Below the pieces are notes generated by a model that was not told the DNA's origin, ran no database searches, and saw nothing but the letters and a program-made list of their open reading frames with translations. Below are positions 25,838 through 32,189 of a stretch of 32,330 nucleotides of DNA, piece after piece. This DNA is from an uncultured Bacteroidota bacterium. Lineage in GTDB: Bacteria; Bacteroidota; Bacteroidia; Bacteroidales; P3. The DNA is taken from assembly GCA_902783595.1 (NCBI GenBank), contig CACZRR010000010.1, positions 1 through 32,330 of the forward strand, read 5' to 3'. A program made the position numbers and the translations under genes. The number at the start of each line of letters is the position of its first letter. Positions within the stretch are counted from its first letter, which is position 1.

Positions 25838-28285
25838 CTATTTCTTCTGCTCTTTGGCGGCATCGCTCTCTTCGCCATAACCGTAGCCATAACCATAGCC
25901 GTAGCCATAACCGTAACCGTAGCCGTAACCATAGCCATAACCGTAACCGTAGCCGTAGCCACCGTAGCGTTTCTTGATGAGAGGCACATCGGTGAGGATT
26001 ACAGCCATGTTGCGGAAGCGCTGCTTGTCGGCCATCTCCTGCACAAAGGGCAGCGAGTTCTTGTTGAGGTAACCCACGCGCATGATGTAGGCGGTGAGGT
26101 CGGCCGAACGGTTGACGATGGAGGCGTCGGCCACGATCTGTGCCGGCGTGGAGTCGAGGATAATGTAGTCGTAGTGCTCGCGGAGGTAAGCCACCAGGCG
26201 GTCGAACTTGTCGCCCATGAGCAACTGGGTGGCGTTGGGCGGCGTCTTCTCGCAGACGATGTAGTCAAGGTGGTCGCTCGATTCGCTGTGCATGATGAAG
26301 CGTTCGAAGTCGTCGTTCTGATCCAGCAGGTAGTGGATGAGGCCCAACCGGTTGTGACGGTCGATGGTCTTGGAGAGCGAGCGCTTACGCAAGTCGAGGT
26401 CGACAAGGATGGTACGCTTTCCGGTGTATGCCAGCGAGAGGGCCAGGTTGAGGGCCACATAGCTCTTACCCTCACCAGGCACCGTGGAAACGGTTTGTAT
26501 GACGCGCTGGTCGTCCTTGAGGAAGAAGGGTATGTTGGAATGCAGCAGGCGGAAGGCCTCAGTGACAACGTCAGTGCCGTTGGCGGTGACGATGATCTCG
26601 TCGCTGCCGCGAGGCTCGGGTTTCTGCGGTATCTCACCCAGAACGGGCAGCGAGGTGGCGCGTTCGACGTCAACCTTGGAGCGCAACTTGGTGTCGAAGA
26701 AACTGATGCCGAACATGATGGCACCAGGCAGCGCAAGGCCAAGCACGATTGCTACAAGGAAGTACATCATCAAGCGGGGACCTGCAAGTCGCACCAGGGC
26801 GGGCTCCACAACTTTGGCGTTGGAGATGGTGACGGCAAGGTTCATGGCCGTCTCCTCACGCTTGGAGAGGAGGTAGAGGTACAGCTCCTCTTTGATCTTC
26901 TGCTGACGAGTCACCTCGGTGACCGCTTTCGTCTGCGTAGGCATGGCGGCAATCTGTCCGCGGGCACGGGCCTCCTGGTTGCGGGCTTCCTGCAGGCGCA
27001 CACGCGTGGCGGTGAGGAAGTTGTTGACCGAGGTGTTAATGGCGTTGAGTTGGTCGTCCAACTGCTGACGTAAGGCGCGTACGTCGGGGTTGTTGGGACC
27101 GGCGGTGGTCTTCAGTTTCTTGTAGCGTGTAACAAGGGTGTTGTAGTTGTTGAGCATACCCTGAATGCCAGCGTCGGAGATGCCCACGTTGACGGGGATG
27201 ATCTCCTCCTTGTTGACGGGGTCGGCCACGTGGTTGCGGATGTAGCTGATGAGAGTCATCTCCGTCTCCAGGCGGTTCACCTCGTCGGTGTAGCGCTGAC
27301 CTGTCTGCAGCAGCTGCGACGAGGCGGAACTGAGGTCGGGCAGCTGCGAGCCGCGCTTGATAGATTCCACCTGCGCGTCGACCACATTCAGCTCACCCGA
27401 GATGAGGGCGATACGTTCAGAGATGAAGGCCTCGGTCTTCTGAGCCACCTTGTTCTTGTCGTCGATGGCATCGTCGTTGTAGACGGCAATGAGCGTATCG
27501 ACAATCTGGTTGGCACGCTCGCTGTTGGCGTCGTTGAAGGTGATGGAGAGAATGGAGGCCATCTTGTCGACACGACTGACGCTGAGGCGTCCTACCATGG
27601 AGCGCGCCAGCGGCATGATGGGATGCTCAGCCATATGGAAGGTGACATCCTGGCAGGCTTTGGTATAGAACTCCGTACACTCGATCTTGAACGCTACAGT
27701 GTCGTCCATCTCGATGCGCTGGCTGTAGTAGGCCTCGCCGCTGCGGGTCACGCCGTCCATCGTGGCGCTATACTCATACTTGTTGTTGGCACGCGGGGTG
27801 ACACGCACCGAGAGCGTAATCTCGCGCTTCTCGGGTGCTTTGTCTTGCACCGTGAGTTCAAGAGGAGCGTCCTTGAAGTAGGTGATCTTGCGGAAGAGGT
27901 CGTTGCGCACGCAGGAGTGGTTCAATCCGAGGCGCGCCACCACCTGGCTCATCAGCCACGACGACCGCAGCATGTAGATCTCGTTCTCCAGCGAGAGGTT
28001 GCTGTTGTCCATCCCCATGTTGCTGAGGATGGCATCCATGTTGCGGCTGGAGTAGCGCACGTTGTTGCCGTTGTCACGCACAAGGATGGTGCCGGTGGCC
28101 GTGTAGGTCTTGGGTTCCGACTTATACACCAACGCGGCGACAAAGAGGCAGACGACCACGGAGATGAGGAACCAGTACCAGTTGTTGATGACCATGAACA
28201 CGAGGTCGCGCAAGTTGAGAGAGTTCTCGTTGCCGTTGTCCTCGCCAGTGTTGTTCTGGCTTTGGTTTTTGTTATATTTTTCCAT
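25838..28285 (-). CDS. wzc: Polysaccharide co-polymerase and autophosphorylating tyrosine kinase (Wzc-like BY-kinase)
   Basis: An 815-residue inner-membrane protein. A Wzz chain-length domain is bounded by TM helices at about residues 31-51 and 520-545, with a coiled-coil periplasmic section between. The cytoplasmic kinase domain has Walker A VPGEGKS (Lys607), Walker A' [11 protein letters not shown] and Walker B YIILDST (about residue 709). BY-kinases phosphorylate a C-terminal Tyr cluster to control assembly and length of exported polysaccharide. Here the tail is an almost pure Tyr-Gly repeat, 15 Tyr within about 31 residues, followed by a short charged end. It lies 31 bases after the Wza gene. 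Confidence 0.93.
25874..25966 (-). repeat. Hexanucleotide coding repeat, (Tyr-Gly)14 in the Wzc tail
   Basis: Fourteen uninterrupted Tyr-Gly codon pairs occupy 25874-25957, preceded in the protein by Tyr-Gly-Gly (25958-25966). On the coding strand the unit is TAY GGY. Both TAT and TAC, and both GGT and GGC, are mixed irregularly, so the array is a degenerate 6-base repeat rather than a freshly expanded one. Copy-number change in steps of six keeps the frame and alters the number of phosphorylatable Tyr. Confidence 0.95.
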
Positions 28286-28316
28286 AACGGGTATAAGTTG
28301 ACGGGATGAGATGAGG

Positions 28317-29135
28317 TTAGATACGTTTGCTGAGCAGGTAGTAGTAGTATGCCGAGATCAACAAAGAAACGACGGAAACACCGCTGCTGATATAAGTGAG
28401 GTAGATGGGGTCGCGGTCGGCCGAACGTTTGCGCTTCTTGTTGGGCTCCACATACACCACGTCGTTCTGGTGCAGGTAGTAGTAGGGCGACTGAAACACA
28501 TCGTCGGAGGTGAGGTCCAACTCGCCGATGGTGCGCACGCCGTTCTCCTCACGGATGACGGTGACGTTGGTGCGCTGGCCGTAGATGGTGAGGTCGCCCA
28601 CCATACTGATGGCCTCAAAGATGGTGAGACGCTCGCCAGTGGCTTGGATCATGCCGGGGCGCACCACCTCGCCGAGCACGCTGACCTTGAAATTGAGCAA
28701 CTTGACGGTGACAACAGCATCAAGGATATGACCCTCGCTGACAAGGCGCTGCTCCAAGAGGGCGGCGAGTTCAGTGTGCGTCATGCCCTCCACATGTATC
28801 TTGCCCAACACGGGGAAGATGATGTCGCCCTCGCGGCTCACAAGGTAACCCGACACAGCGTTGCTACCGGGGTTCATCACCGAACCGCCGTCGACGGCAA
28901 TCTTGTTGGTCTCCTGGTTGAAGCGTATGGTAGCCTCCGGCGTGCGGCTCTCCACATAGATGTAGAGCTGGTCATTGGCTTGGATACCCTTGGAGAACTC
29001 GCCGGTGATGGCTACCGGCACATCGCGCTGCGACTGACTCAGGTAGGCAATCTCCCCGGTGCTGCCGCACGACACAAGTGTCATCATCGTCACCACGGCG
29101 GCGACAAATGAGAGCCGAGATACTGTTTTTCTCAT
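28317..29135 (-). CDS. wza: Polysaccharide export lipoprotein (Wza-like, Poly_export/SLBB)
   Basis: A 272-residue protein with a lipoprotein signal peptide (hydrophobic core to residue 21, lipobox LVSC with Cys23). It continues with a polysaccharide-export domain (about 45-140, including VSREGDIIFPVLGKI) and one SLBB domain (about 150-215, VLGEVVRPGMI). A C-terminal hydrophobic helix (about 247-268) would sit in the outer membrane. It forms the outer-membrane exit channel for capsule or exopolysaccharide, docking with the following Wzc protein. It is the first gene of the long minus-strand operon. Confidence 0.92.
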   Translation of the reverse strand: MRKTVSRLSFVAAVVTMMTLVSCGSTGEIAYLSQSQRDVPVAITGEFSKGIQANDQLYIYVESRTPEATIRFNQETNKIAVDGGSVMNPGSNAVSGYLVSREGDIIFPVLGKIHVEGMTHTELAALLEQRLVSEGHILDAVVTVKLLNFKVSVLGEVVRPGMIQATGERLTIFEAISMVGDLTIYGQRTNVTVIREENGVRTIGELDLTSDDVFQSPYYYLHQNDVVYVEPNKKRKRSADRDPIYLTYISSGVSVVSLLISAYYYYLLSKRI

Positions 29136-29215
29136 ATTATATAATATTCTCTAAAATATATCAATTCTTTCGTTTACACATCCTTACGGCACATCCCGAA
29201 AGATGTGTCACGCTG

Positions 29216-29246
29216 CAAATATACCAATTTTTCATAACACCGACAA
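29216..29246 (-). promoter_or_regulatory. Bacteroides-type promoter of the polysaccharide operon
   Basis: On the minus strand TATATTTG (29223-29216) matches the TAnnTTTG -7 box, with TTG (29246-29244) 20 bases upstream as the -33 element. Transcription would begin near 29209 and leave a leader of about 75 bases. The first leader bases can form a hairpin, CACATC/GATGTG with a 6-base loop (29190-29207), which could be a regulatory or stabilising element. I see no other promoter of this type on the minus strand down to 15178. Confidence 0.75.
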
Positions 29247-29358
29247 TATTTTTTTCATCTGCCTTTTTGGGCATAAAAAATGACGTCAAAAACAATATAC
29301 CCGCATCACCCACGTTATACCCTCGCAAACAACCCCTTATCTTCGTTTTTAACCATCA

Positions 29359-29726
29359 GCTGCTCTATAGCTGCTCTATAGTTGCTCTATAGTTCCTCTA
29401 TAGTTCCTCTATACCCTCGCTATAGTACCTCCTAGTTCCCTCCCAGTTCCCTCCTAGGATTCCCTAAGATCCCCTAGGACCACCTAGGGCCACCTAGAAT
29501 TGCCTAGAATCACCTAGAATCGCCTAGGACCACCTAGAATCACCTAGAATCGCCTAGGACCACCTAGAATCGCCTAGGACCACCTAGAATCGCCTAGAAT
29601 CCCCTAGGACCACCTAGAATCCCCTAGGACCACCTAGAATCCCCTAGAATCCCCTAGGACCACCTAGAATCGCCTAGGACCACCTAGAATCGCCTAGAAT
29701 CCCCTAGGACCACCTAGGATTGCCTA
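29359..29726. repeat. Tandem array of 36 short CTATAG/CCTAGG-centred units, 11-bp then 10-bp period
   Basis: Nine units cover 29359-29456, eight of 11 bp and one of 10 bp (such as GTTCCTCTATA, GTTCCCTCCTA). They are followed without a break by 27 units of exactly 10 bp (29457-29726), mostly GGACCACCTA, GAATCGCCTA, GAATCACCTA or GAATCCCCTA. Every unit ends in CTATA or CC(T/C)A, so a CTATAG or CCTAG(G/A) core recurs at each junction. There are no unique spacers. TAG/CTA in a 10-bp register puts a stop in all six frames every 30 bases, so it is noncoding. It lies between the divergent wza and kamB promoters. Confidence 0.95.
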
Positions 29727-29756
29727 TCCTCTCCCCCTCCCCAAAATTTTTTTTCG

Positions 29757-29764
29757 TACCTTTG
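29757..29764 (+). promoter_or_regulatory. -7 promoter box of kamBC
   Basis: TACCTTTG fits the TAnnTTTG box, in a 14-base context (TTCGTACCTTTGCA) identical to the ferredoxin promoter. No TTTG lies at the expected -33 position; a C-rich tract and A4T8 run (29727-29754) occupy it, directly after the repeat array. The start codon at 29781 is only 16 bases beyond the box, so the leader would be about 10 bases. Confidence 0.7.
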
Positions 29765-29780
29765 CAGCCAAAACCGCTGC

Positions 29781-30788
29781 ATGCCGTTTGTCGAAGCCAT
29801 ACTGAAACACCGCAGCCTCTCTATCGTAGGGCTGGACAAGAACACGGGAAAAACCGTGTGTCTCAACTACCTCCTGCGTCGTCTGGCGCAAGAGGGCGTG
29901 GCAGTGGGCGTCACCTCCATCGGCGTCGACGGCGAGCAGGTGGACAGCGTGTTCGCCACAGCCAAACCCGAAATCACCCTCTACAAGGGCACACGTTTCA
30001 TCACCTCGGAGCGACACTATCTGATGCGGCAGGTGGTGTCAAAACTGGTGTCCGTCGACAGCCGCCGCACCTCCCTGGGACCCCTGGTGACAGCCGAAGT
30101 GCTCATCCGCGGCAAAGCGCTGCTGTCGGGAGCTGCCACCACAGGCATTCTGCGTCAGCAGATACAACAGCTTGATAACATGGGTTGTAGGATCACTATC
30201 GTCGACGGGGCACTGTCACGCCTGAGCTTGGCATCGCCCACCATCACCGATGCCATGATACTGGCGACAGGAGCCGCCGTCTCGGCCAATCTCAAACAGC
30301 TCATCGCCAAGACTCGCCACCAATACAATCTCATACAGTTGGATGAGGTTCAGGAGAAGACGAGAGCAAACCTATCAACCATAGAATCAGGACTCTGGGC
30401 ATTGGACGACGACAGCCAACCTCACGACCTAGGCATCGCCTCCGTATTCCTGATCGACCGCAGCGAGCAGGATATCCTGCGCTTCGGACGCACACTCTTC
30501 GCCTCGGGTGCCGTGAGCGACCGACTACTGAAGATACTCAACACCAAAGGCGAAGGCATCACACTGATAGCACGAGACTTCACCAAGCTCTTCATCACCC
30601 CGGAAGTATACAACGACTTCCTCCGGCACAACAACCGCCTGCTCGTGCTCAAGAAAAGCCGCCTCATAGCCATCACCCTCAACCCAACCTCTCCACAAGG
30701 CTATCTGCTTGATTCCAAGAGTGCTTGCAGCGCCCTTAGCGACGCCCTCGGCACACCCGTATACGACGTAATGAAGATCAATCAATAG
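29781..30788 (+). CDS. kamB: Putative lysine 5,6-aminomutase reactivase subunit KamB
   Basis: A 335-residue protein with a P-loop near the start, GLDKNTGKT (residues 17-25), then a domain with the ITIVDGALSRLSLASP stretch resembling P-loop NTPase-like reactivase proteins. The pairing with a MutS-like ATPase immediately downstream (stop and ATG adjacent) is the known kamB-kamC arrangement of lysine-fermenting bacteria. There the two proteins are proposed to restore damaged B12 cofactor on lysine 5,6-aminomutase (KamDE). The assignment rests on recalled family resemblance and context; the mutase itself is not in the window. Confidence 0.75.
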   Translation: MPFVEAILKHRSLSIVGLDKNTGKTVCLNYLLRRLAQEGVAVGVTSIGVDGEQVDSVFATAKPEITLYKGTRFITSERHYLMRQVVSKLVSVDSRRTSLGPLVTAEVLIRGKALLSGAATTGILRQQIQQLDNMGCRITIVDGALSRLSLASPTITDAMILATGAAVSANLKQLIAKTRHQYNLIQLDEVQEKTRANLSTIESGLWALDDDSQPHDLGIASVFLIDRSEQDILRFGRTLFASGAVSDRLLKILNTKGEGITLIARDFTKLFITPEVYNDFLRHNNRLLVLKKSRLIAITLNPTSPQGYLLDSKSACSALSDALGTPVYDVMKINQ

Positions 30789-32189
30789 ATGAAAATAAAA
30801 GAACTGATAAAAAGCGACCCCGGATTCCAATATATTATTGATAGCATGGAATTTATGTCCGCTGCCGGACGTCGCAAAATGCTCGACACCTCCTTCAGCA
30901 ACGACCCCTCGTGGCTACAGGACGAGTGGCACCGTCTCGACGAAACCGTAAAAGCCACTCGCGAATATAAATATAAGAAACCATATATCGACCTGCGCCA
31001 CTGCCTGATGTGCCTCCACGACCTGCAGGGCACGCTGGCGTCGCTCTCTGCTCACACCTGCCTCAACGAGGTGGAACTCTTTGAAATCAAGAACCTATCC
31101 CAACTCAGCACAACCGCTGCCACCGCACTCGACAGCATGGGTCTCTCCGCCATGTTACCTATCCCCGACACAAAAGCGGTGTTCGACCTACTCGACCCTG
31201 ACCATACCGGCATCGCCAACTTCTACATCTACGACAGCTACGACCCTCGCCTGGCACCGCTGCGCCGCGAGTTGCAGGGCTTGCAGACATCCGACGGCGA
31301 CCCACAGCGCATCAGCGACCTGCTGGCACAACAAAACGAGATACAGGAGGCCGTCTGCATCGCCCTCTCCGACCGCCTTCTACCATGGTGCGAAACACTT
31401 GTAACAACCATGGAACAAATGGCTTACACCGACTTTCTATTGGCCAAGGCCGACCTCGTCATCCGCTGGGAACTCACTCTTCCCACCGTGGGCGACCACA
31501 CCGAATTCCAAGGCCTCATCAACCCACGCCTGAAGGAGCGCAACGAAGCCCAAAAGCTGCGCTACCAACCCGTCGACATCACCATCCAAAGCGGCGTGAC
31601 ACTCATCACCGGCGCCAATATGGCCGGCAAGACGGTGCTGCTCAAGAGTGTCGGCACAGCACAAGTGATGGCGCAATGCGGCATGTATGTCCCTGCATCC
31701 AAGGCTATTATACATCTCGTAGAGGGCGTGATGACCTCCATCGGCGACGACCAGGACGAGATGAACGGCCTCTCCTCCTATGCTTCGGAAATCATCAAAA
31801 TCAGCGACATCCTGCGCGCCTGCCGCCAACACAACCTGCTGGTGCTCATCGACGAACCCGCGCGTACTACCAACCCCGTGGAGGGCAAAGCACTCGTGCA
31901 AGCCATCATACGCATCCTCGAACAATGCTCCTCCTACACCCTCATCACCACCCACTACGGACAGCTGGGCACACACTGCCGCCGCCTGCGCGTGCGGGGG
32001 TTCGTGGAGAACATGGAAGAGATCCCTCTCACTCCGCAGAGCATCAACCGCTTCATCGACTACTCCCTTACCGAAGATCAGAGCGACAACGTGCCCCACG
32101 AGGCACTCCGCATCGCCTCCATCCTGCAATGCGACACAGAGATGATCACCCTGGCTTCCGAAGCCGTCAACGCCATCGGCAAAGCCTGA
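30789..32189 (+). CDS. kamC: MutS-like ATPase, putative lysine 5,6-aminomutase reactivase KamC
   Basis: A 466-residue protein. The N-terminal two-thirds is helical and resembles the MutS core/lever region. The C-terminal ATPase has Walker A GANMAGKT (residues 275-282), a GDDQDEMNGLSSYASE signature segment, and Walker B LLVLIDEPARTTNP (Asp355, Glu356), as in MutS ABC ATPases. No mismatch-binding domain is present and the protein is far shorter than MutS (about 850). Together with KamB it fits the KamC reactivase rather than DNA repair. It starts directly after the kamB stop; no clear terminator on the + strand follows it. Confidence 0.78.
   Translation: MKIKELIKSDPGFQYIIDSMEFMSAAGRRKMLDTSFSNDPSWLQDEWHRLDETVKATREYKYKKPYIDLRHCLMCLHDLQGTLASLSAHTCLNEVELFEIKNLSQLSTTAATALDSMGLSAMLPIPDTKAVFDLLDPDHTGIANFYIYDSYDPRLAPLRRELQGLQTSDGDPQRISDLLAQQNEIQEAVCIALSDRLLPWCETLVTTMEQMAYTDFLLAKADLVIRWELTLPTVGDHTEFQGLINPRLKERNEAQKLRYQPVDITIQSGVTLITGANMAGKTVLLKSVGTAQVMAQCGMYVPASKAIIHLVEGVMTSIGDDQDEMNGLSSYASEIIKISDILRACRQHNLLVLIDEPARTTNPVEGKALVQAIIRILEQCSSYTLITTHYGQLGTHCRRLRVRGFVENMEEIPLTPQSINRFIDYSLTEDQSDNVPHEALRIASILQCDTEMITLASEAVNAIGKA

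Follow-up and report, generated by a model that had tools for sequence, protein, structure and literature searches.

A long CCTAGG array from a family of intergenic ladders in some gut Bacteroidales

Introduction

Tandem palindromic sites, CTAG-type cores among them, are a feature of Met-box and trp operators, where dimers sit side by side, while CRISPR loci consist of repeats of tens of base pairs with longer unique spacers. Stop-overlapping short intergenic arrays and palindromic repeats downstream of genes are also known already, according to excerpts of PMC4679880 and PMC3733652, respectively. The former are direct repeats of the heptamer TAACTGA, found in Beggiatoaceae, some Cyanobacteria and Bacteroidetes, and in the same excerpts they are proposed to be regulator-binding sites, their function being without proof (PMC4679880). 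The latter, the REPs, are palindromes of 20–40 bp, most of them tagged with GTAG or CGTC and some linked to RAYT transposases, as described in excerpts of PMC3733652 and PMC12306157.

Here we analyse a long array of short palindromes in the window, by which we mean the whole 32,330-nucleotide stretch of DNA under study. The array belongs to a family of CCTAGG 'ladders', which lie between genes in some gut Bacteroidales, and is long for that family. The excerpts of open-licence literature that were searched contained no paper on such CCTAGG arrays.

Results

Structure and setting of the window array

A direct recount placed the array at 29359–29728, with the structure first described for it. 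From 29365 to 29717 it holds 32 cores, 27 of them CTAG and five CTATAG (at 29365, 29376, 29387, 29398 and 29420). The left part (29359–29452) is made up of 11-bp-spaced palindromic CTATAG units (29365–29425), followed by CCTAGT and degenerate CCCAGT units. The main ladder (29453–29718) comprises 27 units in an exact 10-bp register, just as the initial annotation had it for the last 27 units, and is followed by a degenerate 28th unit, CCTATC, at 29723–29728. The 10-bp period originally given for the array as a whole therefore stands from 29453 onwards and gives way to 11 bp in the left part, and the statement that each unit carries a CTAG or CTATAG core fails at 29463, which reads CCTAAG, and in degenerate units near 29409 and 29442. 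Within the main ladder the words are CCTAGG (12), CCTAGA (14) and CCTAAG (1), separated by 4-bp spacers that are mostly ACCA, ATCC or ATCG. The cores do lie about one helical turn apart; their proposed alignment on one face of the DNA would apply to short arrays only, since across 28 units an exact 10-bp spacing would fall out of phase by roughly half a base in every turn.

The identity of the array with itself was greatest at lags of 50 bp (0.92) and 100 bp (0.90), which points to expansion by 50-bp (five-unit) blocks, and its exact unit number is unsafe because the source assembly is 80% complete and lies in 112 contigs. A three-unit pattern with at most one mismatch matched 32 times on the two strands of the window, every time inside the array, and not once in each of 100 dinucleotide shuffles of the window; 27 of the 39 CTAG copies in the window also fall within the array. 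The array is non-coding, as had been thought, in that no codon-scored gene overlaps it. Its 6-bp core and 4-bp spacer likewise set it apart from CRISPR, and a search of positions 28000–31000 against Rfam returned no match at E up to 1. The array gave no match to phage DNA. Elsewhere in the window, the end of the polysaccharide tyrosine-kinase gene that encodes the C terminus contains a coding repeat of 6/12/18 bp (25874–25961).

The array is flanked on the left by a divergent gene for a polysaccharide export protein (Poly_export, SLBB; 28317–29135, minus strand) and on the right by kamB, encoding the lysine 5,6-aminomutase reactivase subunit KamB (29781–30788, plus strand), after which comes the gene for the reactivase ATPase KamC (MutS-like; 30789–32189, plus strand). 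Predicted promoters lie on either side, in keeping with the divergent arrangement first proposed, with a -7 box TATATTTG at 29216–29223 (minus strand) for the polysaccharide-export gene and TACCTTTG at 29757–29764 (plus strand) for kamB; the motif behind both is what we take to be the Bacteroidota -7 box. In 12 of 15 Bacteroidales orthologues, kamB has a TAnnTTTG box no more than 60 bp ahead of it, a count from which a 16th locus, from a distant Thermotogales, was left out. The nearest named KamB relatives come from Bacteroidales MAGs, for the most part of ruminant and horse gut. None of the 15 KamB orthologues checked has CCTAGG at the window locus; the four nearest carry 11-bp arrays of unrelated words upstream of kamB, and L103–L105 show weaker AT-rich 10–11-bp matches at their KamB loci. 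Left-hand synteny with the window locus was found in L098 alone, L097 being too short to tell.

Distribution of the family

The window array is real, and the same family is present in many other genomes. In the window genome itself, CCTAGG-N4 arrays with differing spacers occur on at least 10 contigs (C3, C10, which holds the window, C11, C14, C18, C22, C27, C30, C40 and C80). The pattern (CTAGN6)x3-CTAG was found in 9 of 61 genomes, its own included, all of the same genus, and the stricter (CCTAGGN4)x2-CCTAGG in 17 of 120 same-genus genomes, again with its own. The latter pattern was found in none of the 15 genomes reached through KamB orthologues. An order-wide draw of 393 genomes, just two of them from the window genus, yielded three positives, namely the window genome and one representative each of two other families; both of these outlying arrays share the CCTAGG word and the 4-bp spacing, and in both the array's own TAG is the stop of the adjoining open frame. 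The reversed control pattern was absent among the matches listed.

In the 17 positive genomes, which were chosen by the N4 pattern itself, three-unit forward matches numbered 172 with N4, one with N3 and none with N5. Contig C1 of genome G002 has five CCTAGG arrays against none for eight of nine control hexamers and one for TCTAGA. Across 364 gaps of G002, CCTAGG at a period of 10 was the commonest combination of palindromic hexamer and period (six gaps), with AACGTT at 11 bp as runner-up (four gaps). On the same contig C1, CTAG (160 versus 497 expected) and GATC (398 versus 1153) are both depleted about threefold.

Anatomy and location at gene boundaries

We examined the 64 arrays present at the fetched loci, which are part of their genomes' total and of which several are mutually orthologous. 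They contain 437 units, most often CCTAGG (276), CCTAGA (51) or TCTAGG (25), and 357 of the 373 steps between units are 10 bp in a search that tolerated 9 to 11. The core profile is strongest in the centre (T3 431, A4 433, C2 420, G5 423, C1 385 and G6 347 of 437 units) and becomes weaker outward through the flanking spacer positions (A1 207 and T4 175 of 357 spacers), giving a core of CCTAGG weakly extended to TCCTAGGA. Spacers are diverse, with 105 distinct ones among the 357; adjacent spacers are more alike than shuffled ones and less complementary (0.86 versus 1.25). Only three arrays are long, all in the window genome (L032 with 37 units, the window array with 28 and L028 with 27), and the others have at most 11. 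Unit number differs among orthologous arrays of related species, for example 6, 8 and 8 in one case and 9 and 4 in another.

Neighbours were assigned from codon-scored genes in place of greedy open reading frame calls that had misjudged some of them; the codon-scored calls still misjudge some, such as L044, whose orthologue L090 has an upstream plus-strand stop. By this assignment, 52 arrays lie in tandem gaps, six in convergent gaps, five in divergent gaps and one at a contig edge, with none inside genes, and this 52:6:5 ratio compares with a background of 203:20:19 for G002 C1. With five of 64 arrays in divergent gaps, the window copy included, the idea of a single element that buffers two divergent promoters is not supported. 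The window copy is atypical, being long, built with 50-bp block duplications and placed between two predicted divergent promoters.

Arrays in tandem gaps begin a median of 3.5 bp past the stop codon and end a median of 27.5 bp ahead of the next start. Forty of the 52 tandem arrays are nearer to the stop than to the start, against 25 ± 3.5 under random placement, a shift that is also expected from the leader needed before the next start. In 21 of the 52 the upstream stop is an in-register TAG of the array itself. The stops upstream of the tandem arrays are TAG in 25 cases, TAA in 26 and TGA in one, compared with 17, 82 and 41 for G002 tandem gaps of at least 30 bp (n = 140), 35, 61 and 39 for the array loci's own gaps (n = 135) and 4, 19 and 4 for 100 kb of G064 (n = 27); genes ending in TGA are thus nearly missing upstream of arrays (1/52 versus 41/140, 39/135 and 4/27). 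Where a terminator-like hairpin was visible by eye, the examples lay downstream of the array, which argues that the array itself is not the terminator. Two loci from different species, L076 (G028) and L083 (G030), have CCTAGG ladders on both sides of one conserved short stretch, and at L043 (4079–4119) an ACTAGT palindrome array with a 9-bp period adjoins a CCTAGG ladder.

Core conservation and spacer drift

We compared 19 orthologous array pairs, hand-listed with both flanks matched and several of them sharing a member, after dropping one-flank matches and refetched copies of the same locus. Core identity was 494/516 (95.7%), a figure inflated because the pairs were found through both members carrying detectable arrays, and spacer identity was 170/260 (65%) with the register picked to favour the spacers; random spacers share 0.32. 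A check for decay that is less biased than the orthologous pairs, made on three contigs known to hold arrays, covered 364 gaps in 680 kb of G002 and found seven high-scoring arrays of at least four units and none with intermediate scores, a range in which shuffles gave about two. A looser scan of the same contigs found nine arrays, the three-unit or uneven-step ones falling outside the decay check.

Other words in the same gaps

For the gap upstream of the acyl-CoA dehydrogenase gene, 30 loci were fetched as the closest by protein from 119 genomes. Twenty-four gaps were readable, four of 13–16 bp and 20 of at least 35 bp, and among the longer ones two carry CCTAGG, and others have GTCNGAC at 9 bp, inverted heptamers or ACGT-rich words. 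The window genome's own acyl-CoA dehydrogenase copy (L033) has the same CCTAGG array. In the gap after a second gene, also at 30 loci, three species have CCTAGG and one has CTAG units with a 9-bp period, further loci have octamers and heptamers, and 12 of the 30 gaps are shorter than 35 bp. The period of the G116 array was 9 bp on recount.

Genomes G002 and G145 contain many other short-period intergenic arrays. In G147 (L113–L122; for example L113:7498–7592) we observed near-identical palindromes of 82–106 bp, in which repeats of the 11-mer TGTTCTTCGAT are followed by their inverse; 14 copies occur in 177 kb with short flanks alike, and the element looks like a mobile palindromic repeat. G002 C1 (L046–L060) has a second 11-bp family, which recurs at about eight intergenic loci (such as 38420–38538, 107357–107418, 180908–181019 and 268400–268524); its arm ACCAACACCGT often has an inverted arm after it, and the word GTAGGAGTTG in G147 is related to it. 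Heptamer arrays of the TGATGAG, AACACTA, TTAAGAA and TTGAAAA types, some with inverted arms, fill many tandem gaps of G002 C1, C2 and C5.

Discussion

We tentatively favour the reading that the ladder is a series of identical palindromic sites for a putative dimeric, sequence-specific DNA-binding protein, without holding it to be probable. A dimer would bind each palindromic CCTAGG, and neighbouring sites would be occupied with a fixed geometry (10 bp, with free 4-bp spacers); the resulting protein coat on gene boundaries could separate adjacent transcription units or slow RNA polymerase, acting on the DNA as an insulator or road-block, and the window copy might separate two divergent promoters. 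An oligomerising protein, as first suggested, is possible at the window array. We prefer this reading because of the strict N4 spacing, the palindromic profile that weakens outward, the free spacers, and the occurrence of arrays inside and outside predicted transcripts. Arrays in tandem, convergent and divergent gaps alike, the recurrence of word, spacing and stop overlap in two other families, the core conservation in the 19 pairs and the lack of half-decayed arrays in G002 also count for it. Against it, the word is found in just 17 of 120 same-genus species, the majority of arrays lie at gene ends rather than promoters, tandem duplication by itself also holds a period constant, and the core conservation depends in part on the requirement that an array be detectable in both members of a pair. 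Moreover, gaps that carry CCTAGG in one species are occupied by different words in related species, at periods that include 7, 8 and 9 bp, and a conserved factor leaves these word changes unexplained.

A broader view that we consider possible but doubtful is that a gut Bacteroidales genus carries undescribed, genome-wide gene-boundary satellites with exchangeable words, in which position and short-period design are kept and the word, and perhaps its reader, is species-specific. Such words would include CCTAGG at 10 bp, CTATAG at 11 and ACTAGT at 9, together with inverted 11-mers, octamers and heptamers, often anchored at a stop.

Two close rivals of the protein ladder each seem to us rather unlikely. 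The first is a REP-like RNA element that is transcribed after the stop and whose cores pair into stem-loops, with the effect of protecting the upstream mRNA, uncoupling translation or terminating a part of transcription; since every core must pair with all others, the word would then be locked. The prevalence of tandem gaps (52 of 64) and the median distances from the upstream stop (3.5 bp) and to the next start (27.5 bp) suit such an element, as do the fold z-scores of four of five segments (window plus strand -4.4, L082 -4.5, L033 -4.0 and L031 -3.2; the fifth, the window minus strand, scored -1.9). In the two orthologous gaps, non-CCTAGG gaps of at least 35 bp gave z below -2 in 11/18 and 5/15 cases, or 12/20 and 8/18 with the CCTAGG species included. 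However, a length of exactly 4 nt is no requirement for an RNA loop, neither predicted transcript covers the window copy, and the adjacent-spacer complementarity, being below shuffled, led us to reject long hairpins formed through the spacers. The bias towards purines on the sense strand of spacers (24:11, with ties in the remainder of the 49 arrays) matches that of array-free gaps (81/120) and was dropped as RNA evidence; a bias beyond background (83 to 89) was seen for CAAT, in 13 arrays versus ATTG in two, for a word picked post hoc. Core changes that tolerate G-U pairing favour the sense strand by 25 to 6, but a single array contributes 14 of the 25, and counted by array the ratio is 9 to 5. 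On G002 C1, 15 of 36 repeat gaps fold strongly, and 21 do not (z -3 or higher); non-repeat gaps fold strongly as often, as ordinary terminators would give, so strong folding was discarded as a signature of arrays. When the fold energies of all gaps were set against those of another family, the control gaps (five tandem) were too few for a comparison. With RNA hairpins, the position between cistrons and a part of the alternative words would be explained, but the strict spacing and the window copy would not.

The second, which we judge no more probable, is short-period satellite DNA, rapidly turned over and largely without function, that occupies the space between a stop and the next ribosome-binding region. 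Consistent with this, the two orthologous gaps hold species-specific words (CCTAGG, CTAG 9-mers, GTCNGAC 9-mers, heptamers and octamers) or very little, the gap types of arrays match the background, and the likeness of adjacent spacers and the 50-bp blocks suggest growth through duplication of units or blocks. Neutral decay, on the other hand, should erode cores and spacers equally and leave half-decayed arrays, neither of which was found, and independent slippage does not produce the same word at the same spacing across many loci. Satellite turnover would therefore account for the word changes, but not for the core conservation or the missing decayed arrays.

It is very improbable that the ladders serve as an all-frame translation stop, in which a TAG every 10 bp needs no more than three units to shut every frame of both strands, as a guard against read-through: the in-register TAG of 21 of 52 tandem arrays, the TAG frequency (25/52 versus 17/140 in G002 tandem gaps) and the 360 sense stops versus 249 expected in G002 repeat gaps speak for it, but CC, GG and the exact spacing go unexplained, antisense stops are enriched as well (220 versus 164), ORF-based gap calling is biased to stop-rich repeats, and the window copy does not lie behind a gene end.

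Mobility of the RAYT/REP kind is not required for the arrays, although Y1_Tnp (PF01797), a family that also includes ordinary IS200-type transposases, is common; 73 of the 119 genomes have it, as do 14 of the 17 with arrays. G000 (80% complete) gave no match, and G064 and G108 are absent among the positives listed.

What seemed an isolated curiosity is thereby a countable family with natural replicates, at many loci in 17 same-genus species and two other-family genomes. The conserved cores set against free spacers, along with the other words of sister species, make it directly testable whether the short tandem repeats found between bacterial genes are regulatory, structural or junk. In the excerpts of open-licence literature searched, we found no description of palindromic ladders with a 10-bp period whose words are exchanged from species to species.

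Among described systems, Met-box and trp operators resemble the CCTAGG ladders in being tandem palindromic sites, some with CTAG-type cores, and differ in being located at the promoters of a regulon. TAACTGA repeats, to judge from excerpts of PMC4679880, are like the ladders in forming short intergenic arrays at many loci, with stops in all frames and some overlap with the upstream stop, an overlap seen here in the 21 tandem arrays. They are contiguous, oriented 7-mers near start codons, over the ribosome-binding site (PMC4679880), whereas contiguous 7-bp TAACTGA repeats are absent from the ladders, which have a palindromic 6-mer, variable 4-bp spacers and an exact 10-bp period and typically start at a stop codon. 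Like REP/BIME elements, as these appear in excerpts of PMC3733652 and PMC12306157, the ladders are palindromic, intergenic, mostly downstream in tandem or convergent gaps (58 of 64, outside coding sequence) and plausibly transcribed. In place of the 20–40 bp palindromic unit of a REP, however, they are multi-unit, with palindromes of 6–8 bp repeated every 10 bp.
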